DNA from: Chrysophaeum taylorii
Lineage: Eukaryota > Sar > Pelagophyceae > Pelagomonadales > Pelagomonadaceae
Reading direction: 5' to 3'
DNA length: 64,000 nucleotides
Assembly (NCBI GenBank): GCA_029834535.1
Contig: JAQMWT010000047.1
Span: 207,499 to 271,498 of the forward strand
Under the pieces are notes generated by a model, which worked only from the letters and a program-made list of their open reading frames with translations, was not told the DNA's origin and searched no databases. Both the position numbers and the translations under genes were made by a program. Position 1 is the first letter of the stretch. Each line of letters begins with the position of its first letter. Below, piece after piece: positions 1,150-64,000 of the stretch.

Positions 1150-1170
1150 TCCTAACTACTAATCGACAGA

Positions 1171-1217
<47 letters not shown>

Positions 1218-2204: not shown

Positions 2205-2224
2205 CCTAACTACTAATCGACAGA

Positions 2225-2263
<39 letters not shown>

Positions 2264-3130: not shown

Positions 3131-3597
3131 ACTTTTCTAAACACCACACCCACCGTGTGCTGACGAAGTTTCTTCATGCGAAGAAGAAGAAGAAGAAGAA
3201 GAAGAAGAAGAAGGGGGTTTTGTTTTAGTTTACTTTAGTTTTGTTTAGTTAGGCGGGAGCGGCCCAGAAAAGTCCGCAGCTCCCCACCAGCCCGCCCGCG
3301 GAGTCCACGCGCAAAGAACCAGACTTCGTCCTTCTTTCTTTCTTTCTTTCTTTCTAAAAAGGGGTGATGAGCTCCGAGCCGAATATTTAAGTATACTGTA
3401 TAAGGGGGAGAGGACGTGTCCTGTGTGTGGTTCACGAGGGCATCAGAGTGGGGCATATCAGAGGGTGTGTGCACGCACGCACGCACGCAGGCACGCACGC
3501 GCAACCTTCTCAGAAGGAGATAAAAAAAACAACACCAAACGAGATAAGCGAGGGTTAAGTGTGGCGACGACAAAGAAAACGACCTCAGACGACGACG
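3131..3597. promoter_or_regulatory. 5' region of the 3598 gene with simple repeats
   Basis: Lies between the Helitron-like pair and the next gene. It holds a (GAA)n tract at 3181-3213, a (TTCT)n tract near 3335-3355, and a (GCAC)n tract near 3470-3498. 'aatatttaagtatactgtataag' near 3383 is the only AT-rich stretch and a possible core promoter, which is inference. Nothing else is supported. Confidence 0.35.
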
Positions 3598-7996: not shown

Positions 7997-8024
7997 CTTT
8001 CCTCGCCGCAAGAATTATGGGAAG

Positions 8025-39400: not shown

Positions 39401-40921
39401 TCAGTCATCAGACGGCACGATTTCGCAACATGGCGCCGCCGCCGCCGCCGCCAGCTCCTCGACGATGATATTAACATCAGGACGCGCATAAATAAACCTC
39501 AGAGCAGCCAAGCTTAACGACGACGACGACGACGACGACGATGTGAAAAAAAAACACGCTCCTCGTCCTTCGAGGTTACACTTGTGCACGCAAGCCGCCG
39601 CGGAAAGAGAAGCACGCAATCCCGCCCGCGCGTCGTCGAAAAGAAGGAGTACCAACAACAACAACAACAACAATACATGAGACGGCGAGTGGATGGATGC
39701 ATTTTCCCCTCGGGCGGGGGGATTCCGAGATCGATCTTCGACGAATATTGTATTCTGTTCGATAGACCCCACCTCCTCCTCGTCATGAAGCGGCGGGGTC
39801 TTTACGCTCGAAATGGACGAGGCACCTGGTGAGGCGGCGCTTATCAGCAGAGAAAAAACAACTAGAAGAGACACGGACTCGAGGTGCGGGGTTCGCGGGA
39901 AGGCGTCGAGGACGGCGAAGGAGCGTATTTGGTGTGTCTCCGCGAGGAAATCAAGGTCGGTCTGAAGGGCCGCGGGATTGCAGGAGACGTAGAGAACGTT
40001 GTCGTAGTGGCGGAGGATGCGGCGGGTTTTAGGGTCGAGGCCGCGACGGGGGGGGTCGACGAGAAGAGCGTCAAACAAATTTTTTATTTTCGCTCCAAGT
40101 CTAGCGCAGTACTTGGAGGCGTCGCTCGCCAGGACGGTCGCGTTGGTCACCCCGTTGCGGTCGAGGTTACGACGCGCGGCGGCGACGAGGGTCGCGTCGA
40201 CCTCGACGGCGACGACGGTCCGGCACAAGGCCGCGAGGGTTACGGTATGGTTCGCCGCGCCGCAGTAGAGCTCGAGAAGATCGCACTCGCCGATATCCCG
40301 GAGGCGCGCGCACAACCACTCGAGGGAGCGTTCGTTGGCGCGGGCGTTGGGGTGGCAGAAGGAACCCTCCGGAAACTCGAGGACGAAAGTCCTGTCGTCG
40401 ACGAACAGCTTTTCCAAGGTCGACGACCGATCGCACGCGAGCGTGAGACCCTTGGAGCGGCCGACGCAGTGGATTTCCGGCAGCAACGTTCTCGCGGCAT
40501 CAAGCCACGCGGCCTCGTCGAAGGGCGACGCGTATACGAGCGACACCAATATCGGGAAATCGAGGCTGCGCGGCGCGTGGAAGTGGACGGCGCGAAGTCC
40601 TAGGGAGAGGTTTTCGAAGGTTCGGAGGATCCTCGGCATCGCCGCGTTGATGCGGGGCGATGCGAGCTCGAAGCTGTCGACCCGTCTCTCGCCGACGCGG
40701 TAGTGCAACTCTGCGCCGGAACCTCCCACCGAGAACCGGCACCGCTGCCGGTACTGCGTCTCCTCCTCCGCCAACATGACCTCGGCCTCGAACCCGGAAG
40801 AAAAGGCCTCGAGGACGACGTCGATCTTGTTGCTGGACACAGTCGTCGTCGTCGTCGTCGTCGTCGACGTCCTCCTCGCCGAAAAGGAAGAAGCCAGGAC
40901 GCCCCCCCCATAGCGTCCCAT
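39401..40921 (-). CDS. TrmA-type tRNA (uracil-5-)-methyltransferase
   Basis: 506 codons as read; residues ~40-354 align along the whole of bacterial TrmA. Landmarks: 'YRQRCRFSVGGSGAELHYR' (57-75), 'RRVDSFELASPRIN' (79-92), 'LLELYCGAANHTVTLA' (215-230; SAM-binding motif I), 'LLVDPPRRGLDPKT' (286-299), 'VLYVSCNPAALQTDL' (309-323) with nucleophile C314, and 'RTPHLESVSLLV' (343-354) with catalytic E348. The family makes m5U54 in the T-loop of tRNA. A bacterial-type enzyme suggests an organelle or a gene of bacterial origin. The last ~150 codons are low-complexity (poly-Leu, poly-Ser, poly-Ala) and are not part of the family, so the real end may lie near 39850 or after an unseen intron. The start codon lies 51 bp from ClpB. 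Confidence 0.85.
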   Translation of the reverse strand: MGRYGGGVLASSFSARRTSTTTTTTTTVSSNKIDVVLEAFSSGFEAEVMLAEEETQYRQRCRFSVGGSGAELHYRVGERRVDSFELASPRINAAMPRILRTFENLSLGLRAVHFHAPRSLDFPILVSLVYASPFDEAAWLDAARTLLPEIHCVGRSKGLTLACDRSSTLEKLFVDDRTFVLEFPEGSFCHPNARANERSLEWLCARLRDIGECDLLELYCGAANHTVTLAALCRTVVAVEVDATLVAAARRNLDRNGVTNATVLASDASKYCARLGAKIKNLFDALLVDPPRRGLDPKTRRILRHYDNVLYVSCNPAALQTDLDFLAETHQIRSFAVLDAFPRTPHLESVSLLVVFSLLISAASPGASSISSVKTPPLHDEEEVGSIEQNTIFVEDRSRNPPARGENASIHSPSHVLLLLLLLVLLLFDDARAGLRASLSAAACVHKCNLEGRGACFFFTSSSSSSSSLSLAALRFIYARPDVNIIVEELAAAAAAPCCEIVPSDD

Positions 40922-40972
40922 CCCTTCCTTTCTTTGTTCTCAACGGCAGTCGAAGGTTCGTCGTCGACAAGA
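40922..40972. promoter_or_regulatory. 51-bp shared promoter of the TrmA-type gene and ClpB
   Basis: Interval between the two divergent start codons. Pyrimidine-rich on the TrmA side ('cccttcctttctttgttctc'). It must contain both transcription starts unless they lie inside the neighbouring coding sequences. Confidence 0.5.
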
Positions 40973-43915
40973 ATGATGATGATGTTGATGGGGGTAGCGA
41001 GCGGGTTCGTGCCGGCGGCGCCTACGACGTACTCCGGTCGGCGCGTGGTTGTGAAGGCGGCTACGGCGACCCCCGGGGCGATCACGCCCGAGGCGTTCAC
41101 CGAGAAAGCGTGGGAGGGGCTGCAGGGAAGTGCGGCGAACGCGATGCGCCGCGGCGGAACGGTCGTCGAAGCCGAGGACCTCGTGAAGGCGTTGCTGCTC
41201 CAGGGTCCGGACGGACTGCTGAAGCGGAGCCTCAATTTGTGCGAACCGACGGCGGACGCGGCTCTCCTGGAGCGATTATGCGACGAGAAGCTTTCGAGAG
41301 GACCTCGGGTCACGAGCGGCGGCCAGAATCCCGCGTTCGGGGCGGCCGCGCAGCGCGCCGTCCAGAGGGCGATGGAGCTGTCGTCGAACGCGGGGGACGA
41401 TTACACGAGCGTTGAGTTTCTGGGACTCGCGTTGTGCGAGGGAGCGGGAGATTTGTTCGAGCGCGCGGGCGCCGGGAAAGAGACGTTGGAGAAGGCCGTC
41501 GACAAGCTGCGCGGCGGGAAAAAGGTGACGAGCCGGACCCCCGAGTCGACGCTCGAGGCTCTGGAGAGGTACGGGCGCGACCTGACGGCGGCAGCGCGCG
41601 AGGGCAAGCTCGACCCCGTGATCGGTCGCGACGAAGAAATTCGACGGGCAATCCAGATCCTCTCGCGCCGCACGAAGAATAACCCTATCCTCGTGGGGGA
41701 GGCCGGGGTCGGGAAGACGGCCATCGCCGAGGCCCTGGCGCAGCGCGTCGCGGCCGGCGACGTGCCCGAGGCCCTCAAGGGTCGGACGCTCGTGTCGTTA
41801 GACATGGGCGCGCTGGTCGCCGGCGCCAAGTACCGAGGCGAATTCGAGGAACGGCTCAAGGCCGTGCTCGAGGAGGTCCAGGAGGCCGCGGGGAATATTA
41901 TCCTGTTCATCGACGAGGTCCACACTGTTGTGGGGGCCGGCGGGGGCGGCGCGATGGACGCGGCCAATCTCCTCAAACCCGCGCTCGCGCGCGGCGAATT
42001 GAGGTGCGTCGGCGCGACGACGCTCGCCGAGTACAAGAAGCACGTCGAGTCCGACAAGGCCCTCGAGCGGCGGTTCCAGCGGGTGATGGTGACCGAGCCG
42101 AGCGTCGAGGCGACGGTCTCGATATTGCGCGGTCTCAAGCAGCGCTACGAGAGCCACCACCGCGTCCGCATCCTCGACTCGGCTCTGGTCGCGGCCGCGC
42201 GCCTCACCGACCGGTACGTCGGCGGTCGATTCCTCCCCGACAAGGCGATCGACGTCGTCGACGAGGCCGCGGCCAAGCTCAACAACGAGGTGACCTCCAG
42301 GCCCGCCGAGCTCGACGCGGCGGAACGGGCGATCGTCCAGCTGGAGATGGAACGGTTCTCGTTGACGTCCGAGCAACGTCGCGGCGAAGAAACCGCCGCG
42401 ACCGCCGAGTCGGCGGCGACGCGCGCCGAGCGCGCCGAGCGCGTCGCCGCCATCGACGAGGAGCTCGCGAAGCGCCGCGAGGACCAGCAGCGCCTCACGA
42501 GGGCCTGGGAGTCCCAGCGGTACGCTGTGAACGATCTCTCGGAGCTCAAGGACGAGATCGCGCGCCTCGAGAAGCAAATCCGCGACGCCGAAGGCGGCTA
42601 CGACTTCGAGCGCGCCTCGGACATCCGGTACACGACACTTCCGGAGGCGCAGCAAAAGCTCGCTCAGGCCGAGCTCGACCTCGAACAGGGAGCTTCGATG
42701 GTCCGCGATACGGTAACCCCCGACGACGTCGCCGAAGTCGTCGCCTCGTGGACGGGAATCGCGGCCGCGCGCCTCGCGGATGCCGAGCGCGTTAAGCTCC
42801 GCGACCTCGAGACCCTGCTCTCCAAGCGCGTCGTCGGCCAGCCCGACGCCGTCGCCCTCGTCTCCGACGCCGTGCGCCGGTCTAAGGCTGGCCTCGGCGA
42901 TCCGACGAGACCAGTGGCTGCCTTCGCGTTCCTAGGGCCTACGGGCGTCGGGAAGACCGAGCTGGCCAAGGCCCTCGCCGCCGAGGTCTTTGACGACGCG
43001 AACGCCCTCGTCCGCATCGACATGTCCGAGTACGGCGAGAAGTTCTCGGTCTCGCGGCTCCTCGGGGCCCCGCCCGGCTACGTCGGCTACGAGTCGGGAG
43101 GACAGCTCACGGAAGCCGTGCGCCGGAAACCCTACTGTGTCCTCTTGTTCGACGAAATGGAAAAGTCGCACCCCGACGTCTTCGACGTGTTTCTCCAACT
43201 CCTCGACGACGGCCGCCTCACCGACGGCCAGGGAGAAACGGTCAGCTTCCGCGACGCGATCGTCCTCTTCACCTCGAACGTCGGCTCCCAGCTTATTTTG
43301 GACAGCGTCGAGGACTTCGCCAGGGCCGAGCGGAGCGACGAGACCGAGGCCCAAGTCGCCCTCGCGGAAGTCAAGCGCAAGGCGATCGACGCCATGCGCG
43401 CCAAGTTCCGTCCCGAGTTCATTAACCGCCTCGACGAAATCGTCGTCTTCGAGCCCCTCCGCCGGTCGACGCTCCGGGCGATCGCGCGCCTCGAGCTCGA
43501 CAAGGTCGCCGCCCGCGTCCGCACGGCCCACCAGGTCGAACTCCAAGTCTCCGACCGCACCCTCGACCACATCGCCACCGTCGGCTTCGACGCTGCTTTT
43601 GGCGCGAGACCCCTCAAGCGCGCCGTCCAGCGCGCCATCGAGACCCCCCTCGCAAACGCCGTCCTCAACGGCGACTTTTCCCCCGGCGCCGTCGCGCGTT
43701 TCGACGTCGAGAACGAACGACTCCACCTCACTGTCGTCCCGCGACACGACGATCCTCCACTTGTTGGCGGCGAGCATCAACAACCCCCCGCTGCTGCTGC
43801 TGCGGCTGCTGCTGCTGCTGCTGCTGCGCCGCGAGAATCAGAAACAGAAGCAGAATCGAAGTCAGAAGCAGAATCACCCCCCCCGCAGCCAGTCCAAGCC
43901 AGTGCCTCCTCCTAG
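40973..43915 (+). CDS. clpB: ClpB-type disaggregase (Hsp100), plastid-targeted
   Basis: 980 residues, single exon. The chosen ATG gives a hydrophobic signal ending Gly-Val-Ala-Ser-Gly-Phe-Val-Pro, very like the 'ASAFAP' motif of proteins entering complex plastids; the open frame upstream has no such signal. Domains: Clp N-repeats (about 40-175), AAA+ module 1 with Walker A 'GEAGVGKT' (242-249), Walker B '[13 protein letters not shown]' and 'RRFQRVMV', a coiled-coil middle domain (about 450-570) that marks ClpB rather than ClpC, AAA+ module 2 with Walker A 'GPTGVGKT' (655-662), Walker B '[14 protein letters not shown]', and '[17 protein letters not shown]'. The tail adds a poly-Ala tract from a (GCT)n repeat and an acidic/Ser/Pro end not seen in bacterial ClpB. 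Role: ATP-driven rescue of aggregated proteins with Hsp70. Confidence 0.94.
43790..43827. repeat. (GCT)n microsatellite coding poly-Ala in ClpB
   Basis: Slightly imperfect trinucleotide run near the 3' end of clpB, in the Ala frame. Confidence 0.8.
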
Positions 43916-47042: not shown

Positions 47043-47309
47043 GCTGCCGAACGTGTCTGGCTGCGAGGAATCTCCTCAAATTGTCACAACGTCCGTGTAT
47101 CCGGAGTTTTCGTTCAATGTACTAATACATACTGGTTTTGTATATACTGAAGAATTCTGCAGTGGAAGATTCGCCAAACGTTTCTAAACGTTTGTGTGGG
47201 GGGGGGGGGTAGCCGGGCTCTGACCCCACCACCTGACGTCAGTCACACGTTTAGGCGCATCTTCGAGAGAGCCTACTAGAGTGACGCGGATCTTGTGGCT
47301 ATAGTACAC
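47043..47309. other. Left flank of the tandem array
   Basis: Contains a direct pair 'aaacgttt' ('cgccaaacgtttctaaacgt') near 47172 and a long G-run near 47197-47208, just before similarity to the repeat unit begins. No gene recognised. Confidence 0.4.
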
Positions 47310-47496
47310 AGTTCGCGGGAAACGCGTTACGATTGCATCGCGGAGAGCGCCGCACGTGAGTGTCGCATAACCAAGCGGCGTCAGAGCGTTGAGTGCATCT
47401 TCTCTTCGCCAACGCTGTGTCTCGACCGTATCTCGGATGAGTCACGACTGCAAGAGGACGCTTGCCGTAAATCATTGCTGTTGCCTACTACACCAG

Positions 47497-48048
47497 ATTG
47501 GGCCGAGCCTTAAAATAAAACGGGGGATAAAGCTGCCAACAGACAAGATTATCATTACCCTCATACAGCTTCGTTGCGATTCCGTTGCGAGAAGATATGG
47601 AGTGTGCGTTTACGACTTGTTGGTGGAGGCGCAACCTCTTTTGTCAAATGCTCACACGTGACAGACAATAAGGAGCGCATCGTGTTACGTTAGTGTCAGA
47701 AAGAGCGTGTTGCAAGAAAGCGTGGAATTTACTTGCGATCGCGCCGCCCTCCCTGAGCGCAATGCGATTGACCACGCGGCGAGTTGTTTGCGGCCTTCCG
47801 AACCGCTGCACTTCGTCGTACGCCCGCGACACGAGATCGACCATATGAGTGCGCCCATCATTCGACGACGTTTCTGCTCCTGAATATTTTTTCGAGCCAT
47901 ATGCCTCTATGCCAAAGCAGTGGTGCTGGGCACGTATGGTGACTGATTTATTATTTATCTCGGAATCAGCCGAACCCCCACCGTCCACGCGACATCGAAC
48001 AATTATTTTCCCCTGTGCCAGAATCGCTCTGGCTCCGCACGGTTCATC
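47497..48048. other. Extra segment present only in array unit A
   Basis: Units B-D go straight from the 'cttgccgtaaatca' region to the 'tctcgaaatccgtctacgtc' region within about 60 bp; here they are about 550 bp apart. The segment holds a minus-strand open stretch (47644-47988) without ATG that reads protein-like ('VDLVSRAYDEVQRFGRP'). It is either an insertion in A or ancestral sequence lost before the other units multiplied. Confidence 0.6.
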
Positions 48049-48323
48049 GTGTCTCGAAATCCGTCTACGTCACTGAGCATTCTGATCGTCCACGCGCGGG
48101 GTCTGACTACCCCCCCCCCACACCCCCCCACGCATCCCTCCCAATCATCACATAATACGGGGGTAAGGTATCGTTTTCTCAAGAACGATGGAGAACGCTC
48201 TTCGAAATCGAAAGAGAGGACGATGGAGAAGAAGAGTCCTGAAGGATTTCGAAATCGAAGATATCACTTTGATAAGACCAAAGCGTCGCAGACGAACAAA
48301 AGGAAAACACCTATCACACCGAG

Positions 48324-48938
48324 ATGGAAGCACGAACCAACGATACGCTAGGGAGCGAAGAGATGTTGAAGGGGATGGAGCTCGTGCGTGAGTTCGAAGA
48401 GCGCCTCCGTGAATTGGAGGCAGCCGTCAGCGAGGACCCGGACGAGAAGGCGCGAGTCGATGCTATGCGAGAGCGCGTCCAGGGCCTGTACGCCAATCTC
48501 GAGGCCAAGAAAGACTCTTTGGTAGCGAATCGCGAGGAGACTGGCGCGCAGAAGGAAGATGCCGAAGACGACGCTAATGCGGAGACGACAGCCGAAGAGC
48601 GCGCCGACCCTGCGGCCAAGGTCAGGTTGCAAAAACTGGCCGAGCTCGAGGCCAAGGCGGCCGAGGCTCGCGAGGATCGCGAGGTTAAGACGCGGGAGCT
48701 CGCTGCCCTCGCGCGGGAGCACGCTCAAGCCGAGGCGAGCGCCCGCAAGGAACGCGAGAAGCGCCAGGCGGAGATCGACGAGCTCCTGCGCGTCGAGCGC
48801 AAGGCGATGATGGAACGCTGCGTCCTAGATTGCCCTGGCATCGTCGACACCCACCTTTTCCTGGCGCCTCGGCGCACCGTGGCCCTTCGTGCTTCGTCCA
48901 ACATTAACCGCCTGCCCTTGCTCGTCTGGGCCTTCTAA
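48324..48938 (+). CDS. Array coiled-coil protein, 204 aa (unit A)
   Basis: ATG to TAA. Residues ~15-165 are almost entirely charged and Ala-rich with heptad-like spacing ('LVREFEERLRELEAAVSEDP', 'KLAELEAKAAEAREDREVKT', 'ARKEREKRQAEIDELLRVER'), a long coiled coil. The last ~38 residues change character ('MERCVLDCPGIVDTHLFLAP') and end hydrophobic. No known domain. The same ORF is intact in units B and C with few substitutions, so this is the best candidate product of the repeat. Promoter and expression are unknown. Confidence 0.6.
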   Translation: MEARTNDTLGSEEMLKGMELVREFEERLRELEAAVSEDPDEKARVDAMRERVQGLYANLEAKKDSLVANREETGAQKEDAEDDANAETTAEERADPAAKVRLQKLAELEAKAAEAREDREVKTRELAALAREHAQAEASARKEREKRQAEIDELLRVERKAMMERCVLDCPGIVDTHLFLAPRRTVALRASSNINRLPLLVWAF

Positions 48939-49100
48939 GAGGGACGATCCTTTCGGCCCTTGCGCGCATGCATGAACAACCCTGAAACACCCCTGCCCCC
49001 AGTTCACCGCCTTTCGGTGTCAGTCTGCGCAGAAGGAGCACGCCACCCACCCCTTGCCCGTAATGATACTGTAGACTCTTCTGGTTGCTATATCTCTACC

Positions 49101-49355
49101 ATGGTACACACTAAATCTAATTACTTTGAACCGATGTCCGGGCGCGAAGGAAACATTTGGAATGAAAGATTCGGTTGGTTGAAATTGTCGACTGCGTATC
49201 GGTTGGGTTCTCGAACATCCGCAACCCTCGAAAATGCCAGATCACCACCATCTTGGGTTGACGAAATTCATGCGGGTCCTTTGAAATGGATGGCGCGTTC
49301 CATGCATCGCGGTGCCCTTGCGACAAGGCTGATTGAGGGGCACATTCGTCTGTAA
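49101..49355 (+). CDS. Array ORF of 84 codons (unit A)
   Basis: Begins Met-Val-His-Thr-Lys and ends at a TAA that overlaps a following ATG (TAAATG). It is open with the same start and stop in all four units (53418-53672, 56968-57222, 61292-61546). Differences between copies are mostly amino-acid-changing (for example Leu-Ser-Thr-Ala versus Trp-Ser-Thr-Pro), which argues against strong selection. No family recognised; coding status uncertain. Confidence 0.3.
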   Translation: MVHTKSNYFEPMSGREGNIWNERFGWLKLSTAYRLGSRTSATLENARSPPSWVDEIHAGPLKWMARSMHRGALATRLIEGHIRL

Positions 49356-51964
49356 ATGCCAGTTTGCTCACCTTCATTACCACGAATCGTACACGTTTCG
49401 GCTGGGTCGAGGGCACCATCGTATTGACCAGCGCAACCGACGTGCAACTTGCTCGGGTGGACCGCTCCCTGTCTCCGCCGCTGACTCTGATCGGACCGTC
49501 GTGGATCTCACGCTGGCTGCTTTGGTTGACCGGCCCCGGATATTATCAAAATGCAGCGGGTGGGCCACGAGAACAAGGTTTGGTGGTCTACCCCCTTCCT
49601 CGCGGCGGACGGCTGTGCCTTTCTTGTCGCATGTGTTCCTCCTTCGGCGGCGGACCGTGCTTGGTGCGTCGGGCGCTTGAAGACATTACTTCGTCCATGT
49701 GGATGCTACCGGTCTTGTTGGGCCCGGGATTCGGGCTGATCGCACTATGGCAAGTGTCACCCGTGTTGACATGTTGCCTTGTGCATGGTTGACGGCCGCT
49801 TGCGCATAGTTGAGGTGCGAGACACGGGTGGTTATAGCGCGCTTGACTGTGAACTGAAATCCCCGACCTACCACCGCGAGCTGCATCCAGGTTCGGCTTA
49901 CGGTAAAATCGAAGGGGTTTGGCACGGCGACACGGGCCGCTGCAGACACGTCCGCATTCATTATTGCGCTGGTGGCGACCAGTGGCCTTTGACACTGAAG
50001 GCTGTGCGACACTTCTGTTTTCTCCCGGGACAGACTGGGATCGTACATTGTGGTTTATCCCGACTACCACAGCTATTAGGGTTTCTTGAGTCGGTTTGCA
50101 TCGCCTCCACGTGCAACGTCGCCGCTCCGCTGGCGAGTTTCATCGGAAACATTTCTCTTTGCCACTAGGCCACGCCGCATGTATGACGAAACTCCTCGTT
50201 CCAATACTCGCCGTAACACATCCATACATGCATCCCACGCCCCTTCCTCTCTCCCGGACCTCGGTTGGGGCACCTACCCCGCGACTGTTTCCTACGCGGG
50301 CCACGCCTTGCTCTGCACGTGATGCCTGTGATGCCCGACTACCCACCGACCAGATCTCTACGTGGCCAGCGACGGAAATGGGTGCAGAGGTGAGGGTGGG
50401 GTTGCTGTGGCCATTTTCGACCCTATCGCCCCACGCCTCTACGCTTTCGCTTTGCGGGTCACTCCCGGCCCTGGAACTCTACCTGCGTATCTCGCTCAGG
50501 TCTTGGGCATCGCTGCATTTTGATTCCTTCGTAATATGTTTCCTCGGTTACGCCAGAGAGCTGCTCTTGACAATAAGGGCGCTGTGCTCGCGCGTTCTGG
50601 CGTCTCGCAGCGCGCCCCAGTCACATCCGTCGATATTTGGGATGAGACTGCGCACTTTATGTCGCACAAGCTGGACTTTTATATCCCTTCACGCATGATG
50701 TGCTTCCTCGGTTAAATTCAATGCCCGCGAGAGCTCTTCTTGACGATAAGGGCTTGCACATTCTAGCTTCTCGCAGCGCGCCACAGTCACATCCTGCGAC
50801 ATTCGGGATGAGGTTGCGTTCCACACTCCGCGCCTAGCGGCGCATTTTGGATCGTGTGACTTCGAGTGGGTGCGTGGCAACCCCGAACACCGCAAATCCT
50901 CTGCCCAGTTCACCATTGTCGAGTCTCTCCAGCATCTTACTGATGGTCTTGCGGCGTGTTGCGCGTGCGGATGACCCTTCTTGCACGCATTTCTCTCATG
51001 GCCCGCGCTGGTTTGTCGGCTTGCAGCGGCGCCGTCTTTTTGATGGGGTTTTCTCGACTTTGCCGACCCAGCTTGGCGTTGCGCACCTTCGTGCATATGA
51101 GCCTTCGGATGTCGACCCTCAATCTTGGTTCGCCCAAACGTCTATTGTCGGACCGTGCAAGTCCTGCATGAGACGCGCCATGCAGGTTCAATGAGTTCCT
51201 CATGGCGCAATTAGCCATCCGACAGCGCTCTCGGGGTTTGCTGTCCCTGATCACACGTGTCGCTGTTGTCGCCACCCTGGTGCTTCCGAGTCGCTTCACT
51301 ATCTGTTGACTACGTGCTCACATCCCACTTTGACGACGGCGACAAAGAGTTATGTGGCTACTCTGCTGCTTCATCCTTTTGTACTCGCGAGCACGACTTT
51401 TCGCGACTGGTTTATCTTCCGTCTCTCTGCTCCCCACACTCCCCTTTCTCTTCATTTACGGACGCGGCATTCGTCTGCTCTCCCCGTAGGATATGGCAAC
51501 GACGTTGTTTATAACTTCGTGCGCGGTCGTTTTGCCTGCGGAGCTCGTTGACATCATTGTTGCATATACCGTGAATGCTGATGACATGTGATTACCATGT
51601 GTTCTCGCGACATTCGGCCGCTTCGCCTGGACAAAACTAGAACGGCCTGTTTGGGAGGTAAGGTTTTATGCCGTGACCGTCTCCTAGCGTCGTTTTCTCG
51701 TATCTTTCTTCATACCTACGCCTGCCGCTCCTCTCTCTAAGTCTTTTTAACTCTCGTTCCTTCTGCGTCTCCATTTTGCTGTCTATTCTTTCGCTCTTCC
51801 TTCTCCAGTTTTTGCTATCCTCACTTGTCCGGGTTGTCCCTCCCCTTCCTGCTTCTGCCGTCTCCCTTTGCGTTCTTGCTTCTTCTCTGATTCCCTCTGT
51901 GCTCAACCATTCTCGCTCTTTGAGCCCGGGAGTTGCGAACCATCGTTTGGCTTCGAACTTGGTA

Positions 51965-52201
51965 ATGCGAAAAAGAGTAGCGGAAAGAAGAAAGGAGCAT
52001 CGGGGCGAGGCCCCTATGAGGACGGTGATCCTGCAGGGGGTGCAGAGTATGCCCGGGACCTCGACAAAGAGGGAAGAGCACATGCATGTCCGCGAGAGAC
52101 TACGAGCGTCACCCGAAAAACGTGGCTGGATAGTTCGCGGGAAAACACGTAATGATTGCATCGCGGAGAGCGCCGAGCGCGAGTGTCGTAACGGCGCATA
52201 G
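51965..52201 (+). CDS. Array ORF of 78 codons spanning the A/B join
   Basis: Begins Met-Arg-Lys-Arg-Val after a pyrimidine-rich stretch and ends at a TAG. Basic, with 'ERRKEHRGE' and 'GWIVRGKTRNDCIAESAERE'. The equivalent in unit C (59834-60076) is 80 codons because of a 6-bp in-frame insertion, a length change that keeps the frame. Unit B lost most of it by deletion. No family recognised. Confidence 0.3.
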   Translation: MRKRVAERRKEHRGEAPMRTVILQGVQSMPGTSTKREEHMHVRERLRASPEKRGWIVRGKTRNDCIAESAERECRNGA

Positions 52202-55200
52202 TTAAGCGGCGTCTGTGCGTTGAGCGCATCTTCGCCAGCGCTGTGCCTCGACCCTATCTCGGATGAGTCACGACTGCAAGAAGGCTCTTGCCGTAAATCA
52301 ATCATTGATGTTGCCTCCTACGCCACATCATTGTTTCGAAATTGTCTGACCGGAAACGTGTCTCGAAATCCGTCTACGTCACTGAGCATTCTGACTGTGC
52401 ACCCGCGCTGGCTCCGCGGGGTCTGACTACCCCGCCTCGCCCCCGCACGCATCCCTCCCACTCAGCACATATTACGAGGGTAAGGTATCGTTTTCTCAAG
52501 AACGATGGAGAACGCTCTTCGAAATCGAAAGAGAGGACGATGGAGAAGAAGAGTCCTGAAGGATTTCGAAATCGAAGATATCACTTTGATAAGACCAAAG
52601 CGTCGCAGACGAACAAAAGGAAAACACCTATCACACCGAGATGGAAGCACGAACCAACGATACGCGAGGGAGCGAAGAGATGTTGAAGGGGATGGAGCTC
52701 GTGCGTGAGTTCGAAGAGCGCCTCCGTGAATTGGAGGCAACCGTCAGCGAGGACCCGGACGAGAAGGCGCGAGTCGATGCTATGCGAGAGCGCGTCCAGG
52801 GCCTGTACGCCAATCTCGAAGCCAAGAAAGACTCTTTGGTGGCGAATCGCGAGGAGACTGGCGCGCAGAAGGAAGATGCCGAAGACGACGCTAATGCGGA
52901 GACGACAGCCGAAGAGCGCGCCGACCCTGCGGCCAAGGTCAGGTTGCAAAAACTGGCCGAGCTCGAGGCCAAGGCGGCCGAGGCTCGCGAGGATCGCGAG
53001 GTTAAGACGCGGGAGCTCGCTGCCCTCGCGCGGGAGCACGCTCAAGCCGAGGCGAGCGCCCGCAAGGAACGCGAGAAGCGCCAGGCGGAGATCGACGAGC
53101 TCCTGCGCGTCGAGCGCAAGGCGATGATGGAACGCTGCGTCCTAGATTGCCCTGGCATCGTCGACACCCACCTTTTCCTGGCGCCTCGGCGCACCGTGGC
53201 CCTTCGTGCTTCGTCCAACATTACCCGCCTGCCCTTGCTAGTCTGGGCCATCTAAGAGGGACGATCCTTTCGGCCCTTGCGCGCATGCATGAACAACCCT
53301 GAAACACCCCTGTCCCCAGTTCACCGCCTTTCTGTGTCAGTCTCCCCAGGAGGAGCACGCCGCCCACCCCTTGCCTGTGATGATACTGTAGACTCTTCTG
53401 GTTGCTATAACTTTACCATGGTACACACTAAATCTAATTACTTTGAACCGATGACCGGGCGCGAAGGAAACATTTGGAATAAAAAATTCGGTTGGTTGAA
53501 ATTGTCGACTGTGTATCGGTTGGGTTCTCGAACATCCGCAACCCTCGAAAATGCCAGATCACCACCATCTTGGGTTGACGAAATTCATGCGGGTCCTTTG
53601 AAATGGATGGCGCGTTCCTTGCATCGCGGTGCCCTTGCGACAAGGCTGATTGAGGGGCACATTCGTCTGTAAATGCCAGTTTGCTCACCTTCATTACCAC
53701 GAATCGTACACGTTTCGGCTGGGTCGAGGGCACCATCGTATTGACCAGCGCAACCGACGTGCAACTTGCTCGGGTGGACCGCTCCCTGCCTCCGCCGCTG
53801 ACTCTGATCGGACCGTCGTGGATCTCACGCTGGCTGCTTTGGTTGACCGGCCCCGGATATTATCAAAATGCAGCGGGTGGGCCACGAGAACAAGGTTTGG
53901 TGGTCTACCCCCTTCCTCGCGGCGGACGGCTGTGCCTTTCTTGTCGCATGTGTTCCTCCTTCGGCGGCGGACCGTGCTTGGTGCGTCGGGCGCTTGAAGA
54001 CATTACTTCGTCCATGTGGATGCTACCGGTCTTGTTGGGCCCGGGATTCGGGCTGATCGCACTATGGCAAGTGTCACCCGTGTTGACATGTTGCCTTGTG
54101 CATGGTTGACGGCCGCTTGCGCATAGTTGAGGTGCGAGACACGAGTGGTTATAGCGCGCTTGACTGTGAACTGAAATCCCCGACCTACCACCGCGAGCTG
54201 CATCCAGGTTCGGCTTATGGTAAAATCGAAGGGGTTTGGCACGGCGACACGGGCCGCTGCAGACACGTCCGCATTCATTATTGCGCTGGTGGCGACCAGT
54301 GGCCTTCGACACTGAAGGCTGTGCGACACTTCTGTTTTCTCCCGGGACAGACTGGGATCGTACATTGTGGTTTATCCCGACTGCCACAGCTATTACGGTT
54401 TCTTGAGTCGGTTTGCATCGCCTCCACGTGCAACGTCGCCGCTCTGCTGGCGAGTTTCATCGGAACATTTCTCTTTGCCACTAGGCCACGCCGCATGTAT
54501 GACGAAACTCCTCGTTCCAATACCCGCCGTAACACATCCATACATGCATCCCACGCCCCTTCCTCTCTCCCGGACCTCGGTTGGGGCACCTACCCCGCGA
54601 CTGTTTCCTACGCGGGCCACGCCTTGCTCTGCACGTGATGGCTGTGATGCCCGACTACCCACCGACCAGATCTCTACGTGGCCAGCGACGGAAATGGGTG
54701 CAGAGGTGAGGGTGGGGTTGCTGTGGCCATTTTCGACCCTATCGCCCCACGCCTCTACGCTTTCGCTTTGCGGGTCACTCCCGGCCCTGGAACTCTACCT
54801 GCGTATCTCGCTCAGGTCTTGGGCATCGCTGCATTTTGATTCCTTCGTAATTTGTTCCCTCGGTTGCGCCAGAGAGCTGCTCTTGACAATAAGGGCGCTG
54901 TGCTCGCGCGTTCTGGCGTCTCGCAGCGCGTCCCAGTCACATCCGTCGATATTTGGGATGAGACTGCGCACTTTACGTCGCACAAGCTGGACTTTTATAT
55001 CCCTTCACGCATGATGTGCTTCCTCGGTTAAATTCAATGCCCGCGAGAGCTCTTCTTGACGATAAGGGCTTGCACATTCTAGCTTCTCGCAGCGCGCCAC
55101 AGTCACATCCTGCGACATTCGGGATGAGGTTGCGTTCCACACTCCGCGCCTAGCGGCGCATTTTGGATCGTGTGACTTCGAGTGGGTGCGTGGCAACCCC

Positions 55201-55703
55201 GAACACCGCAAATCCTCTGCCCAGTTCACCATTGTCGAGTCTCTCCAGCATCTTACTGATGGTCTTGCGGCGTGTTGCGCGTGCGGATGACCCTTCTTGC
55301 TCGCATTTCTGTCATGGCCCGCGCTGGTTTGTCGGCTTGCAGCGGCGCCGTCTTTTTGATGGGGTTTTCTCGACTTTGCCGACGCAGCTTGGCGTTGCGC
55401 ACCTTCGTGCATATGAGCCTTCGGATGTCGACCCTCAATCTTGGTTCGCCCAAACGTCTATTGTCGGACCGTGCAAGTCCTGCATGAGACGCGCCATGCA
55501 GGTTCAATGAGTTCCTCATGGCGCAATTAGCCATACGACAGCGCTCTCGGGGTTTGCTGTCCCTGATCACACGTGTCGCTGTTGTCGCCGCCCTGGTGCT
55601 TCCGAGTCGCTTCACCATCTGTTGACTACGTGCTCACATCAAGGAAGAGCACATGCATGTCCGCGAGAGACTACGAGCGTCACCCGAAAACCGTGGCTGG
55701 ATA
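52133..55703 (+). repeat. Array unit B, with ~0.75-kb deletion
   Basis: Shorter than the others because the sequence jumps at 55640/55641 from the position equivalent to 51324 in unit A to that equivalent to about 52070. The lost part includes the pyrimidine-rich stretch and most of the 78-80 codon ORF. Otherwise collinear with units C and D. Confidence 0.85.
52641..53255 (+). CDS. Array coiled-coil protein, 204 aa (unit B)
   Basis: Intact copy of the ORF at 48324-48938. Differences include Thr for Leu-region residues near the start ('NDTRGSEEM' here, 'NDTLGSEEM' in A), Ala to Thr in 'LEATVSEDP', and a C-terminal Ile instead of Phe. Length and both ends are unchanged. Confidence 0.6.
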   Translation: MEARTNDTRGSEEMLKGMELVREFEERLRELEATVSEDPDEKARVDAMRERVQGLYANLEAKKDSLVANREETGAQKEDAEDDANAETTAEERADPAAKVRLQKLAELEAKAAEAREDREVKTRELAALAREHAQAEASARKEREKRQAEIDELLRVERKAMMERCVLDCPGIVDTHLFLAPRRTVALRASSNITRLPLLVWAI

Positions 55704-58700
55704 GTTCGCGGGAAAACACGTAATGATTGCATCGCGGAGAGCGCCAAGCGCAAGTGTCGTAACGGCGTATAGTTAAGCGGCGTCTGTGCGTTGAGCGCAT
55801 CTTCGCCAGCGCTGTGCCTCGACCCTATCTCGGATGAGTTACGACTGCAAGAAGGCTCTTGCCGTAAATCATTGATGTTGCCTCCTACGCCACATCATTG
55901 TTTCGAAATTGTCTGACCGGAAACGTGTCTCGAAATCCGTCTACGTCACTGAGCATTCTGACTGTGCACCCGCGCTGGCTGCGCGGGGTCTGACTGCCCC
56001 GCCTCGCCCCCGCACGCATCCCTCCCACTCAGCACATATTACGAGGGTAAGGTATCGTTTTCTCAAGAACGATGGAGAACGCTCTTCGAAATCGAAAGAG
56101 AGGACGATGGAGAAGAAGAGTCCTGAAGGATTTCGAAATCGAAGATATCACTTTGATAAGACCAAAGCGTCGCAGACGAACAAAAGGAAAACACCTATCA
56201 CACCGAGATGGAAGCACGAACCAACGATACGCGAGGGAGCGAAGAGATGTTGAAGGGGATGGAGCTCGTGCGTGAGTTCGAAGAGCGCCTCCGTGAATTG
56301 GAGGCAGCCATCAGCGAGGACCCGGACGAGAAGGCGCGAGTCGATGCTATGCGAGAGCGCGTCCAGGGCCTGTACGCCAATCTCGAAGCCAAGAAAGACT
56401 CTTTGGTGGCGAATCGCGAGGAGACTGGCGCGCAGAAGGAAGATGCCGAAGACGACGCTAATGCGGAGACGACAGCCGAAGAGCGCGCCGACCCTGCGGC
56501 CAAGGTCAGGTTGCAAAAACTGGCCGAGCTCGAGGCCAAGGCGGCCGAGGCTCGCGAGGATTGCGAGGTTAAGACGCGGGAGCTCGCTGCCCTCGCGCGG
56601 GAGCACGCTCAAGCCGAGGCGAGCGCCCGCAAGGAACGCGAGAAGCGCCAGGCGGAGATCGACGAGCTCCTGCGCGTCGAGCGCAAGGCGATGATGGAAC
56701 GCTGCGTCCTAGATTGCCCTGGCATCGTCGACACCCACCTTTTCCTGGCGCCTCGGCGCACCGTGGCCCTTCGTGCTTCGTCCAACATTACCCGCCTGCC
56801 CTTGCTCGTCTGGGCCATCTAAGAGGGACGATCCTTTCGGCCCTTGCGCGCATGCATGAACAACCCTGAAACACCCCTGTCCCCAGTTCACCGCCTTTCA
56901 AGGAGCACGCCACCCACCCCTTGCCCGTAATGATACTGTAGACTCTTCTGGTTGCTATAACTCTACCATGGTACACACTAAATCTAATTACTTTGAACCG
57001 ATGTCCGGGCGCGAAGGAAACATTTGGAATGAAAGATTCGGTTGGTTGAAATGGTCGACTCCGTATCGGTTGGGTTCTCGAACATCCGCAACCCTCGAAA
57101 ATGCCAGATCACCACCATCTTGGGTTGACGAAATTCATGCGGGTCCTTTGAAATGGATGGCGCGTTCCTTGCATCGCGGTGCCCTTGCGACAAGGCTGAT
57201 TGAGGGGCACATTCGTCTGTAAATGCCAATTTGCTCACCTTCATTACCACGAATCGTACACGTTTCGGCTGGGTCGAGGGCACCATCGTATTGACCAGCG
57301 CAACCGACGTGCAACTTGCTCGGGTGGACCGCTCCCTGTCTCCGCCGCTGACTCTGATCGGACCGTCGTGGATCTCACGCTGGCTGCTTTGGTTGACCGG
57401 CCCCGGATATTATCAAAATGCAGCGGGTGGGCCACGAGAACAAGGTTTGGTGGTCTACCCCCTTCCTCGCGGCGGACGGCTGTGCCTTTCTTGTCGCATG
57501 TGTTCCTCCTTCGGCGGCGGACCGTGCTTGGTGCGTCGGGCGCTTGAAGACATTACTTCGTCCATGTGGATGCTACCGGTCTTGTTGGGCCCGGGATTCG
57601 GGCTGATCGCACTATGGCAAGTGTCACCCGTGTTGACATGTTGCCTTGTGCATGGTTGACGGCCGCTTGCGCATAGTTGAGGTGCGAGACACGGGTGGTT
57701 ATAGCGCGCTTGACTGTGAACTGAAATCCCCGACCTACCACCGCGAGCTGCATCCAGGTTCGGCTTATGGTAAAATCGAAGGGGTTTGGCACGGCGACAC
57801 GGGCCGCTGCAGACACGTCCGCATTCATTATTGCGCTGGTGGCGACCAGTGGCCTTCGACACTGAAGGCTGTGCGACACTTCTGTTTTCTCCCGGGACAG
57901 ACTGGGATCGTACATTGTGGTTTATCCCGACTGCCACAGCTATTACGGTTTCTTGAGTCGGTTTGCATCGCCTCCACGTGCAACGTCGCCGCTCTGCTGG
58001 CGAGTTTCATCGGAAACATTTCTCTTTGCCACTAGGCCACGCCGCATGTATGACGAAACTCCTCGTTCCAATACCCGCCGTAACACATCCATACATGCAT
58101 CCCACGCCCCTTCCTCTCTCCCGGACCTCGGTTGGGGCACCTACCCCGCGACTGTTTCCTACGCGGGCCACGCCTTGCTCTGCACGTGATGGCTGTGATG
58201 CCCGACTACCCACCGACCAGATCTCTACGTGGCCAGCGACGGAAGTGGGTGCAGAGGTGAGGGTGGGGTTGCTGTGGCCATTTTCGACCCTATCGCCCCA
58301 CGCCTCTACGCTTTCGCTTTGCGGGTCACTCCCGGCCTTGGAACTCTATCTGCGTATCTTGCTCAGGTCTTGGGCATCGCTGCATTTTGATTCCTTCGTA
58401 ATATGTTCCCTCGGTTGCGCCAAAGAGCTGCTCTTGACAATAAGGGCGCTGTGCTCGCGCGTTCTGGCGTCTCGCAGCGCGCCCCAGTCACATCCGTCGA
58501 TATTTGGGATGAGACTGCGCACTTTACGTCGCACAAGCTGGACTTTTATATCCCTTCACGCATGATGTGCTTCCTCGGTTAAATTCAATGCCCGCGAGAG
58601 CTCTTCTTGACGATAAGGGCTTGCACATTCTAGCTTCTCGCAGCGCGCCACAGTCACATCCTGCGACATTCGGGATGAGGTTGCGTTCCACACTCCGCGC

Positions 58701-60006
58701 CTAGCGGCGCATTTTGGATCGTGTGACTTCGAGTGGGTGCGTGGCAACCCCGAACACCGCAAATCCTCTGCCCAGTTCACCATTGTCGAGTCTCTCCAGC
58801 ATCTTACTGATGGTCTTGCGGCGTGTTGCGCGTGCGGATGACCCTTCTTGCTCGCATTTCTGTCATGGCCCGCGCTGGTTTGTCGGCTTGCAGCGGCGCC
58901 GTCTTTTTGATGGGGTTTTCTCGACTTTGCCGACGCAGCTTGGCGTTGCGCACCTTCGTGCATATGAGCCTTCGGATGTCGACCCTCAATCTTGGTTCGC
59001 CCAAACGTCTATTGTCGGACCGTGCAAGTCCTGCATGAGACGCGCCATGCAGGTTCAATGAGTTCCTCATGGCGCAATTAGCCATACGACAGCGCTCTCG
59101 GGGTTTGCTGTCCCTGATCACACGTGTCGCTGTTGTCGCCGCCCTGGTGCTTCCGAGTCGCTTCACCATCTGTTGACTACGTGCTCACATCCCACTTTGA
59201 CGACGGCGACAAAGAGTTCTGTGGCTACTCTGCTGCTTCATCCTTTTGTACTCGCGAGCACGACTTTTCGCGACTGGTTTATCTTCCGTCTCTCTGCTCC
59301 CCACACTCCCCTTTCTCTTCATTTACGGACGCGGCATTCGTCTGCTCCCCCCGTTGGATATGGCAACGACGTTGTTTATAACTTCGTGCGCGGTCGTTTT
59401 GCCTGCGGAGCTCGTTGACATCATTGTTGCATATACCGTGGATGCTGATGACATGTGATTACCATGTGTTCTCGCGACATTCGGCCGCTTCGCCTGGACA
59501 AAACTAGAACGGCCTGTTTGGGAGGTAAGGTATTATGCCGTGACCGTCTCCTAGCGTCGTTTTTTCGTATCTTTCTTCATACATACGCCTGCCGCTCCTC
59601 TCTCTAAGTCTTTTTAACTCTCATTCCTTCTGCGTCTCCATTTTGCTGTCTATTCTTTCGCTCTTCCTTCTCCAATTTTTTTGCTATCCTCACTTGTCCG
59701 GGTTGTCCCTCCCCTTCCTGCTTCTGCCGTCTCCCTTTGCGTTCTTGCTTCTTCTCTGATTCCCTCTGTGCTCAACCATTCTCGCTCTTTGAGCCCGGGA
59801 ATTGCGAACCATCGTTTGGCTTCGAAATTGGTAATGCGAAAAAGAGTAGCGGAAAGAAGAAAGGAGCATCGGGGCGAGTTCGAGGCCCCTATGAGGACGG
59901 TGATCCTGCAGGGGGTGCAGAGTATGCCCGGGACCTCGACAAAGAGGGAAGAGCACATGCATGTCCGCGAGAGACTACGAGCGTCACCCGAAAAACGTGG
60001 CTGGAT
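55704..60006 (+). repeat. Array unit C, complete (4303 bp)
   Basis: The best reference unit. Order: upstream region with an internal duplication around 'gatttcgaaatcgaa' (56065-56150), 204-codon ORF, 84-codon ORF, overlapping open stretches (57200-58560), internal imperfect duplication (58400-58520 and 58580-58700), a stretch ending 'CAVVLPAELVDIIVAYTVDA' (near 59389-59450), a pyrimidine-rich tract (59540-59770) and the 80-codon ORF. It lacks about 20 bp near 56899 present in the other units. Confidence 0.85.
56208..56822 (+). CDS. Array coiled-coil protein, 204 aa (unit C)
   Basis: Intact. It differs from the unit A and B versions by Val to Ile in 'LEAAISEDP' and Arg to Cys in 'AREDCEVKT'. 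Start, stop and length are conserved. Confidence 0.6.
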   Translation: MEARTNDTRGSEEMLKGMELVREFEERLRELEAAISEDPDEKARVDAMRERVQGLYANLEAKKDSLVANREETGAQKEDAEDDANAETTAEERADPAAKVRLQKLAELEAKAAEAREDCEVKTRELAALAREHAQAEASARKEREKRQAEIDELLRVERKAMMERCVLDCPGIVDTHLFLAPRRTVALRASSNITRLPLLVWAI

Positions 60007-60076
60007 AGTTCGCGGGAAAACACGTAATGATTGCATCGCGGAGAGCGCCGAGCGCGAGTGTCGTAACGGCGCATAG
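59834..60076 (+). CDS. Array ORF of 80 codons spanning the C/D join
   Basis: Same ORF as 51965-52201 but with two extra codons (Phe-Glu, after 'KEHRGE') from a 6-bp insertion. Basic, no recognised domain. It crosses the arbitrary unit join. Confidence 0.3.
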   Translation: MRKRVAERRKEHRGEFEAPMRTVILQGVQSMPGTSTKREEHMHVRERLRASPEKRGWIVRGKTRNDCIAESAERECRNGA

Positions 60077-63000
60077 TTAAGCGGCGTCTGTGCGTTGAGC
60101 GCATCTTCGCCAGCGCTGTGCCTCGACCCTATCTCGGATGAGTCACGACTGCAAGAAGGCTCTTGCCGTAAATCAATCATTGATGTTGCCTCCTACGCCA
60201 CATCATTGTTTCGAAATTGTCTGACCGGAAACGTGTCTCGAAATCCGTCTACGTCACTGAGCATTCTGACTGTGCACCCGCGCTGGCTCCGCGGGGTCTG
60301 ACTACCCCGCCTCGCCCCCGCACGCATCCCTCCCACTCAGCACATATTACGAGGGTAAGGTATCGTTTTCTCAAGAACGATGGAGAACGCTCTTCGAAAT
60401 CGAAAGAGAGGACGATGGAGAAGAAGAGTCCTGAAGGATTTCGAAATCGAAGATATCACTTTGATAAGACCAAAGCGTCGCAGACGAACAAAAGGAAAAC
60501 ACCTATCACACCGAGATGGAAGCACGAACCAACGATACGCGAGGGAGCGAAGAGATGTTGAAGGGGATGGAGCTCGTGCGTGAGTTCGAAGAGCGCCTCC
60601 GTGAATTGGAGGCAACCGTCAGCGAGGACCCGGACGAGAAGCGCGAGTCGATGCTATGCGAGAGCGCGTCCAGGGCCTGTACGCCAATCTCGAAGCCAAG
60701 AAAGACTCTTTGGTGGCGAATCGCGAGGAGACTGGCGCGCAGAAGGAAGATGCCGAAGACGACGCTAATGCGGAGACGACAGCCGAAGAGCGCGCCGACC
60801 CTGCGGCCAAGGTCAGGTTGCAAAAACTGGCCGAGCTCGAGGCCAAGGCGGCCGAGGCTCGCGAGGATCGCGAGGTTAAGACGCGGGAGCTCGCTGCCCT
60901 CGCGCGGGAGCACGCTCAAGCCGAGGCGAGCGCCCGCAAGGAACGCGAGAAGCGCCAGACGGAGATCGACGAGCTCCTGCGCGTCGAGCGCAAGGCGATG
61001 ATGGAACGCTGCGTCCTAGATTGCCCTGGCATCGTCGACACCCACATTTTCCTGGCGCCTCGGCGCACCGTGGCCCTTCGTGTTTCGTCCAACATTACCC
61101 GCCAGCCCTTGCTCGTATGGGCCTTCTAAGAGGGACGATCCTTTCGGCCCTTGCGCGCATGCATGAACAACCCTGAAACACCCCTGTCCCCAGTTCACCG
61201 CCTTTCTGCGTCAGTCTCCCCAGGAGGAGCACGCCGCCCACCCCTTGCCTGTCATGATACTGTAGACTCTTCTGGTTGCTATAAGTCTACCATGGTACAC
61301 ACTAAATCTAATTACTTTGAACCGATGTCCGGGCGCGAAGGAAACATTTGGAATGAAAGATTCGGTTGGTTGAAATGGTCGACTCCGTATCGGTTGGGTT
61401 CTCGAACATCCGCAACCCTCGAAAATGCCAGATCACCACCATCTTGGGTTGACGAAATTCATGCGGGTCCTTTGAAATGGATGGCGCGTTCCTTGCATCG
61501 CGGTGCCCTTGCGACAAGGGTGATTGAGGGGCACATTCGTCTGTAAATGCCAGTTTGCTCACCTTCATTACCACGAATCGTACACGTTTCGGCTGGGTCG
61601 AGAGCACCATCGTATTGACCAGCGCAACCGACGTGCAACTTGCTCGGGTGGACCGCTCCCTGTTTCCGCCGCTGACTCTGATCGGACCGTCGTGGATCTC
61701 ACGCTGGCTGCTTTGGTTGACCGGCCCCGGATATTATCAAAATGCAGCGGGTGGGCCACGAGAACAAGGTTTGGTGGTCTACCCCCTTCCTCGCGGCGGA
61801 CGGCTGTGCCTTTCTTGTCGCATGTGTTCCTCCTTCGGCGGCGGACCGTGCTTGGTGCGTCGGGCGCTTGAAGACATTACTTCGTCCATGTGGATGCTAC
61901 CGGTCTTGTTGGGCCCGGGATTCGGGCTGATCGCACTATGGCAAGTGTCACCCGTGTTGACATGTTGCCTTGTGCATGGTTGACGGCCGCTTGCGCATAG
62001 TTGAGGTGCGAGACACGAGTGGTTATAGCGCGCTTGACTGTGAACTGAAATCCCCGACCTACCACCGCGAGCTGCATCCAGGTTCGGCTTATGGTAAAAT
62101 CGAAGGGGTTTGGCACGGCGACACGGGCCGCTGCAGACACGTCCGCATTCATTATTGCGCTGGTGGCGACCAGTGGCCTTCGACACTGAAGGCTGTGCGA
62201 CACTTCTGTTTTCTCCCGGGACAGACTGGGATCGTACATTGTGGTTTATCCCGACTGCCACAGCTATTACGGTTTCTTGAGTCGGTTTGCATCGCCTCCA
62301 CGTGCAACGTCGCCGCTCTGCTGGCGAGTTTCATCGGAACATTTCTCTTTGCCACTAGGCCACGCCGCATGTATGACGAAACTCCTCGTTCCAATACCCG
62401 CCGTAACACATCCATACATGCATCCCACGCCCCTTCCTCTCTCCGGACCTCGGTTGGGGCACCTACCCCGCGACTGTTTCCTACGCGGGCCACGCCTTGC
62501 TCTGCACGTGATGGCTGTGATGCCCGACTACCCACCGACCAGATCTCTACGTGGCCAGCGACGGAAATGGGTGCAGAGGTGAGGGTGGGGTTGCTGTGGC
62601 CATTTTCGACCCTATCGCCCCACGCCTCTACGCTTTCGCTTTGCGGGTCACTCCCGGCCCTGGAACTCTACCTGCGTATCTCGCTCAGGTCTTGGGCATC
62701 GCTGCATTTTGATTCCTTCGTAATTTGTTCCCTCGGTTGCGCCAGAGAGCTGCTCTTGACAATAAGGGCGCTGTGCTCGCGCGTTCTGGCGTCTCGCAGC
62801 GCGTCCCAGTCACATCCGTCGATATTTGGGATGAGACTGCGCACTTTACGTCGCACAAGCTGGACTTTTATATCCCTTCACGCATGATGTGCTTCCTCGG
62901 TTAAATTCAATGCCCGCGAGAGCTCTTCTTGACGATAAGGGCTTGCACATTCTAGCTTCTCGCAGCGCGCCACAGTCACATCCTGCGACATTCGGGATGA

Positions 63001-64000
63001 GGTTGCGTTCCACACTCCGCGCCTAGCGGCGCATTTTGATCGTGTGACTTCGAGTGGGTGCGTGGCAACCCCGAACACCGCAAATCCTCTGCCCAGTTCA
63101 CCATTGTCGAGTCTCTCCAGCATCTTACTGATGGTCTTGCGGCGTGTTGCGCGTGCGGATGACCCTTCTTGCTCGCATTTCTGTCATGGCCCGCGCTGGT
63201 TTGTCGGCTTGCAGCGGCGCCGTCTTTTGATGGGGTTTTCTCGACTTTGCCGACGCAGCTTGGCGTTGCGCACCTTCGTGCATATGAGCCTTCGGATGTC
63301 GACCCTCAATCTTGGTTCGCCCAAACGTCTATTGTCGGACCGTGCAAGTCCTGCATGAGACGCGCCATGCAGGTTCAATGAGTTCCTCATGGCGCAATTA
63401 GCCATACGACAGCGCTCTCGGGGTTTGCTGTCCCTGATCACACGTGTCGCTGTTGTCGCCGCCCTGGTGCTTCGAGTCGCTTCACCATCTGTTGACTACG
63501 TGCTCACATCCCACTTTGACGACGGCGACAAAGAGTTCTGTGGCTACTCTGCTGCTTCATCCTTTTGTACTCGCGAGCACGACTTTTCGCGACTGGTTTA
63601 TCTTCCGTCTCTCTGCTCCCCACACTCCCCTTTCTCTTCATTTACGGACGCGGCATTCGTCTGCTCCCCCCGTTGGATATGGCAACGACGTTGTTTATAA
63701 CTTCGTGCGCGGTCGTTTTGCCTGCGGAGCTCGTTGACATCATTGTTGCATATACCGTGGATGCTGATGACATGTGATTACCATGTGTTCTCGCGACATT
63801 CGGCCGCTTCGCCTGGACAAAACTAGAACGGCCTGTTTGGGAGGTAAGGTATTATGCCGTGACCGTCTCCTAGCGTCGTTTTTTCGTATCTTTCTTCATA
63901 CATACGCCTGCCGCTCCTCTCTCTAAGTCTTTTTAACTCTCATTCCTTCTGCGTCTCCATTTTGCTGTCTATTCTTTCGCTCTTCCTTCTCCAATTTTTT
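60007..64000 (+). repeat. Array unit D, cut by the window end
   Basis: Collinear with unit C to the last base. It carries several one-base losses, mostly in short homopolymers, relative to all other units: near 60641, 62443, 63038, 63227 and 63472. The pyrimidine-rich tract is just reached at the end. Confidence 0.85.
60516..61129 (+). pseudogene. Array coiled-coil ORF with one-base deletion (unit D)
   Basis: Matches the 204-codon ORF, but one G is missing near 60641 ('gagaagcgcgag' against 'gagaaggcgcgag'). After about 42 codons the frame shifts and reads into Arg/Ser-rich sequence. The original frame is open again from about 60656 to 61129. The rest of the sequence is conserved. It could be a true lesion or a base-calling error. 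Confidence 0.7.

Follow-up and report, generated by a model that had tools for sequence, protein, structure and literature searches.

A tandem array at a contig end of Chrysophaeum taylorii, probably a segmental amplification of a small putative gene and a decayed LINE fragment

The 64,000-nucleotide stretch of the pelagophyte Chrysophaeum taylorii analysed here, called the window below (positions 207499-271498 of contig JAQMWT010000047.1, our C47, in assembly GCA_029834535.1), ends in a tandem array whose unit holds an open reading frame (ORF) of 204 codons and, downstream of it, sequence of a non-long-terminal-repeat retrotransposon (long interspersed nuclear element, LINE). Self-BLASTN of the window and copy-by-copy alignment place the array at 48048-64000, with four copies in direct orientation; these and all features named within the array and at its left edge lie on the plus strand. 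Identity in the five array alignments is 97.7-98.5%, with 98.4% in the longest (48048-55640 against 55924-63510), and part by part the copies are 95-100% identical when gaps are left out. Copy 1 (48048-52356) is 4309 bp long and is followed by copy 2 (52357-55923), copy 3 (55924-60231) and copy 4 (60232-64000). Copy 2 is without 745 bp (unit positions 3278-4022), with the deletion joint at about 55640/55643, and this loss brings its spacing from copy 3 down to 3.57 kb. Copy 4 ends at unit position 3767 because C47, which is 271498 bases long, stops at the last base of the window. The contig therefore ends inside the array, and the number of copies is at least four. The original prediction of four direct, nearly identical copies, three of them with an intact 204-codon frame, is borne out. 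Its start of the array, at 47310, has to be moved to 48048, where the copies begin.

The sequence at 47310-47495 does not repeat the unit; self-BLASTN shows it to be 80-81% like the unit end. The better-aligned stretch, about 47268-47499 (~80%), is an older, diverged copy, X', of a segment X near the end of the unit behind the LINE part (about 52095-52329 in copy 1); the limits of both come from self-BLASTN and edge alignment and are approximate. Beyond 47300 to the left, alignment is no better than with shuffled sequence (best score 75.0; 20 shuffles, mean 71.3, best 89.0). Other sequence, 548 bp long, separates X' from copy 1, and the three inner joints of the array agree with each other and differ from this left edge.

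The copies can be told apart by their own insertions and deletions. Besides the 745 bp gone in copy 2, 17 bp are missing in copy 3 and 1 bp in copy 4, and 11 bp set copy 1 apart from the rest; copy 1 is also the most diverged in several parts. The differences are unevenly spread, e.g., 3/1970 between copies 2 and 4 in the LINE core and 5/219 behind the ORF, and this patchiness suggests exchange between copies. Adjacent direct copies with common joints, as expected of a tandem segmental duplication, are what the array contains. An assembly artefact, in which haplotypes or misjoined reads were placed in tandem, would be compatible with a contig that ends inside the array, and since the unique parts of the unit have near-identical copies on no other contig, the assembly gives no independent check. 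However, the distinct indels of the copies and an identical joint found three times speak against such an artefact, which we regard as very unlikely.

A search of the organism's own genome (70.8 Mb, 697 contigs) returned near-identical copies of the non-LINE parts of the unit on C47 only. This bears on another reading, that of a structural megarepeat, subtelomeric or centromeric, with the gene as a passenger. The position of the array at a contig end and the similarity of its copies would suit a megarepeat, but its unique parts would then be confined to a single contig, and a long ORF with ClpB-type AAA domains (AAA_2, ClpB_D2-small; 40703-43912) lies about 4 kb upstream. We regard a megarepeat as highly improbable.

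About two thirds of the full unit, some 2.8 kb from about position 1111 to 3896, is on the evidence of its sequence the 3' part of a LINE, truncated at the 5' side and with broken frames, which refutes the description of the array as unclassified and free of LINE hallmarks. With one unit as the query, the own-genome search gave at least 93 matching pieces on 34 contigs other than C47, all of them within unit positions 1111-3897; the count is a lower bound from 39 of 238 candidates scored, with C47 itself not among the matches. Pieces longer than 600 bp are 70-86% identical to the LINE part. Because this stretch recurs on 34 other contigs, it belongs to a dispersed repeat family, and the matching pieces have varied limits but a common 3' end, as expected of a dispersed LINE. 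At the 28 loci compared with the unit, the LINE part alone is matched and the ORF part never, so that a non-autonomous element replicating in tandem, one of three earlier readings of the array, is not supported.

The fuller members of the family supply the anatomy. In the relative L007, positions 402-1550 encode a reverse transcriptase (RT) that Pfam recognises as RVT_1 with an E value of 7.4e-5 and 23 bits, below the curated 29.6; a piece of L024 gave RVT_1 with E 0.045, a piece of L021 gave none, and a PDB search with the RT piece returned a single unrelated match (E 0.45). No match to the RT piece of L007 was reported in the window, where the copies are truncated before the RT. Against the window copies, the protein piece from the RNase H side of L007 gives E values of 2e-23 to 3e-76 and a middle protein piece of L003 a best E of 2e-69; both match in changing frames with intervening stops. 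Downstream of the RT, SDG, AE, LDN, WVQGH and DG before LAA, read by eye, reproduce the D-E-D-H-D residue order of RNase H as given in PMC4640811. A single frame holds them in L024 and L007, two frames in L003, and a zinc-knuckle-like end, CRCC...SLHHLLTTC, follows. Upstream of the RT piece of L007, relatives have up to about 2.1 kb in common. The 3' end of the family recurs, in many relatives with AAT repeats or an A-rich tail after it; a 60-nt query from this end gave at least 48 matches, six of which cover the AAT part alone (40 of 59 candidates scored). Taken together, the RT, the RNase H-like order and the common 3' end with its tails make up the anatomy of a LINE. Shuffled sequences fold as well as the 3' stem does (z -0.59; -0.76 for the window version), and four stretches found by pattern when the LINE piece was sought in viral contigs were all unconfirmed. 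Among the relatives, the loci L004 (C428) and L006 (C437) have near-equal match values and frames in common, and are perhaps duplicated contigs or uncollapsed haplotypes.

Within the window, the LINE part covers 49158-51943 in copy 1 (with weaker similarity from about unit position 1071 and broken frames), 53478-55640 in copy 2, where its 3' end went with the 745-bp deletion, 57028-59812 in copy 3 and 61352-64000 in copy 4, where the contig end cuts it off; the starts in copies 2 to 4 are approximate. None of the copies has the 5' RT part or the AAT tail, copy 4 has Q and N at the E and H positions of the RNase H-like pattern, and within the LINE part some 90 bp are duplicated locally, at 77% identity. 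To judge from these features, the window copies are dead pieces of the family. LINEs that carry RNase H include the I group, plant L1, Proto1 and Dualen/RandI, according to PMC4640811. The relatives of the window copies resemble these LINEs in that their RT is followed by a D-E-D-H-D order like that of RNase H and by an end resembling a zinc knuckle; in contrast to them, the window copies are fragments, and the likeness is one of motif order.

The 204-codon ORF, which the ORF list and the protein search place at 48324-48938 in copy 1, 52641-53255 in copy 2 and 56208-56822 in copy 3, occupies unit positions 277-891, upstream of and outside the LINE part; the label "coiled-coil" attached to it is that of the original prediction. 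It is open in copies 1 to 3, while a 1-bp gap in copy 4 shifts the frame and leaves two pieces in two frames (60516-61129; protein search and copy alignment). At the DNA level, the non-LINE 5' part of the unit matches C47 and C684 only, with 75% identity to C684 over 318 columns. Protein relatives of the ORF were found on C684, where the frame is broken, on C531, where an open frame of 391 codons is kept, and on C695; with the C531 protein as the query, C427, C480 and C81 were also found. Residues 163-204 align with C684 at a score of 98, the best of 2000 shuffles reaching 46, and, less strongly, with C531 at 60, where the best shuffle reached 50. Because its C-terminus recurs in the relatives on C684 and, less strongly, C531, the ORF probably represents a small gene of the host that belongs to a diverged family, a view that we hold with moderate confidence. 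Its position-specific G+C of 0.74/0.42/0.76 resembles that of the ClpB-like ORF (0.72/0.48/0.81). The proportions of amino-acid-changing and silent differences (pN/pS) are 0.393/0.578 against the C531 relative, and 0.358/0.623 and 0.388/0.494 against two pieces of the C684 relative, kept apart; among the copies they are 0.0086/0.0207 (copies 1 and 2), 0.0107/0.0139 (copies 1 and 3) and 0.0064/0.0069 (copies 2 and 3), with 4 to 7 changes per pair. As the alignments are partly low-complexity, we place little weight on these values. The ORF family reached no Pfam cut-off (the best was DUF4407 with E 0.052 and 13.3 bits, where the cut-off is 31.3), the ORF had no PDB match, and 194 stretches picked out by pattern in viral contigs as relatives of the ORF yielded none that was confirmed. 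The C684 relative (G000:C684:176500-183500; L050, L042) adjoins a copy of a dispersed 1-kb family described below and a presumably antenna-protein-like frame.

Between the ORF stop and the onset of LINE similarity there are about 180-220 bp. This layout raises the question of a chimeric retrogene, in which the LINE RT would have switched templates from LINE RNA to the ORF mRNA and the inserted fusion would later have been amplified in tandem. With other sequence at the 5' side and a truncated LINE at the 3' side, the unit is laid out like the chimeric retrogenes of Magnaporthe (PMC2104539), and the ORF is a single open frame. However, so is its relative on C531, and the closest DNA relative, at just 75% over 318 columns, points to no recent parent. 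In addition, a spacer lies between the ORF and the LINE part, the AAT tail is absent from the copies, and no target-site duplication was evident at the copy edges that were inspected, although no systematic search for one was made. The spacer, the missing AAT tail and the lack of a close parent also set the C47 unit apart from the Magnaporthe retrogenes. We consider a chimeric retrogene quite unlikely.

The reading that we prefer, with a probability of roughly 0.83, is that tandem segmental amplification at the DNA level gave rise to the array from a single chromosomal block, made up of a small gene with an old LINE fragment downstream of it. The block would comprise the gene, with its one open frame of 204 codons, the 5'-truncated LINE fragment with its RNase H-like part, zinc-knuckle-like end and 3' end, and then a short stretch including segment X. 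In this scenario, the LINE would have been inserted beside the gene and then have decayed; much later, the block of gene, LINE and X would have been duplicated in tandem via unequal exchange or replication slippage. Exchange would then have partly homogenised the copies, while the indels (745 bp in copy 2, 17 bp in copy 3 and the 1-bp frameshift in copy 4) arose. The LINE insertion is placed before the amplification because identity is 97.7-98.5% among the copies but 70-86% between the LINE part and its relatives. The effect of the array, if any, would be a higher copy number of the gene. The data establish what the unit consists of, that the LINE family is dispersed, which event is the older, and that the ORF has relatives with its C-terminus; the working gene, its expression, the mechanism of duplication and an effect on dosage are parts of this scenario that we infer.

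Several observations weigh against this reading or parts of it. X' and X alone do not explain the joint, since the inner joints are without the 548 bp that separate X' from copy 1 at the left edge; a simple exchange between the two would not account for the first duplication step. On the LINE side, Pfam gave no RNase H in the pieces submitted and the PDB sequence search no RNase H match, zf-RVT in the zinc-knuckle-like stretch was not significant (E 0.14), the one endonuclease match in eight pieces (Exo_endo_phos, L021:8053-8718 on the minus strand) was not significant either (E 0.059), and nothing was found for PF14529 in the genome. The RNase H and endonuclease labels are thus mainly motif readings. 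As for the ORF, a search with the C531 protein did not list C684, the C-termini of C531 and C684 align at shuffle level (score 38, a value reached by 42 of 2000 shuffles, the best of them at 49), and at the N-terminus the match to C531 is marginal (reached by 1 of 2000 shuffles). The codon-usage log-odds are 0.128 for its own frame against 0.471 for the +1 frame and 0.193 for one minus-strand frame, a score given little weight with a training set of about 1400 codons. Among copies 1 to 3 the variable codons comprise six amino-acid-changing and three silent ones, and the ORF has diverged to much the same degree as the LINE part (7/615 against 20/1974 between copies 1 and 2); therefore no selection is visible since the duplication.

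Among the three earlier readings, the recently amplified gene fits best, because the ORF, a putative gene, has diverged relatives with a common C-terminus and near-identical non-LINE parts were found on C47 only. An array of ribosomal DNA, of which the original prediction saw no hallmark, or of other RNA genes is rejected on scans of the window in which Rfam gave 0 matches at gathering scores and ARAGORN no tRNA. The array is an ordinary kind of repeat and not a new one. Ordinary tandem gene duplications are homogenised by unequal exchange, and the C47 array resembles them in its adjacent direct copies, 97.7-98.5% identical overall, with copy 1 the most diverged in several parts. It differs from them in that dead LINE sequence makes up most of each unit. 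A close precedent for a LINE 3' part inside the unit of a tandem array is the chicken HinfI repeat, which holds the 3' untranslated region and part of ORF2 of a CR1 LINE (Li and Leung 2006, as summarised in Table 1 of PMC9659126, reference 7). Compared with what that summary gives, the C47 array is different in its 4.3-kb unit, its single locus with at least four copies and its additional gene-like ORF. A literature search with limited terms found no title or abstract describing the C47 array.

Elsewhere in the window, copies of a dispersed family occupy 1187-2205, 2237-3102, 8024-9065, 9099-10079, 34843-35724 and 37120-38043; its members measure about 1 kb and contain internal repeats of 19 bp together with a (TGTC)n stretch. 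An own-genome search gave at least 58 matches (40 of 2931 first-look candidates scored), and the full-length matches besides the query are 97-99% identical; some copies stand in tandem (C331, C1, C629). A 213-codon frame in some copies recalls, in our estimation, the end of a PIF1/Helitron helicase, for which Pfam and PDB gave no support.

The array strikes an "unclassified megarepeat" off the list of candidates, and it makes plain that a decayed LINE can be overlooked in this genome when the sequence is read by eye. Two further loci combine the same LINE family with local repeats. At C196:58149-66413 (L014, L015), two direct 4.1-kb copies, 98.4% identical, contain it. At C533:237000-252500 (L027, L028), LINE pieces and frames that presumably resemble chlorophyll-binding antenna proteins are joined in repeats of both direct and inverted orientation, about 90-95% identical. 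It is conceivable, if rather doubtful, that in this genome fragments of this family seed tandem amplification of the adjacent sequence time and again, on a kilobase scale; C47, C196 and C533 are three chance finds among the loci retrieved, too few for a causal claim on the LINE. If such seeding were true, the LINE would be a motor of gene-copy variation in C. taylorii, and the array would be a local case of the remains of mobile elements creating such variation.

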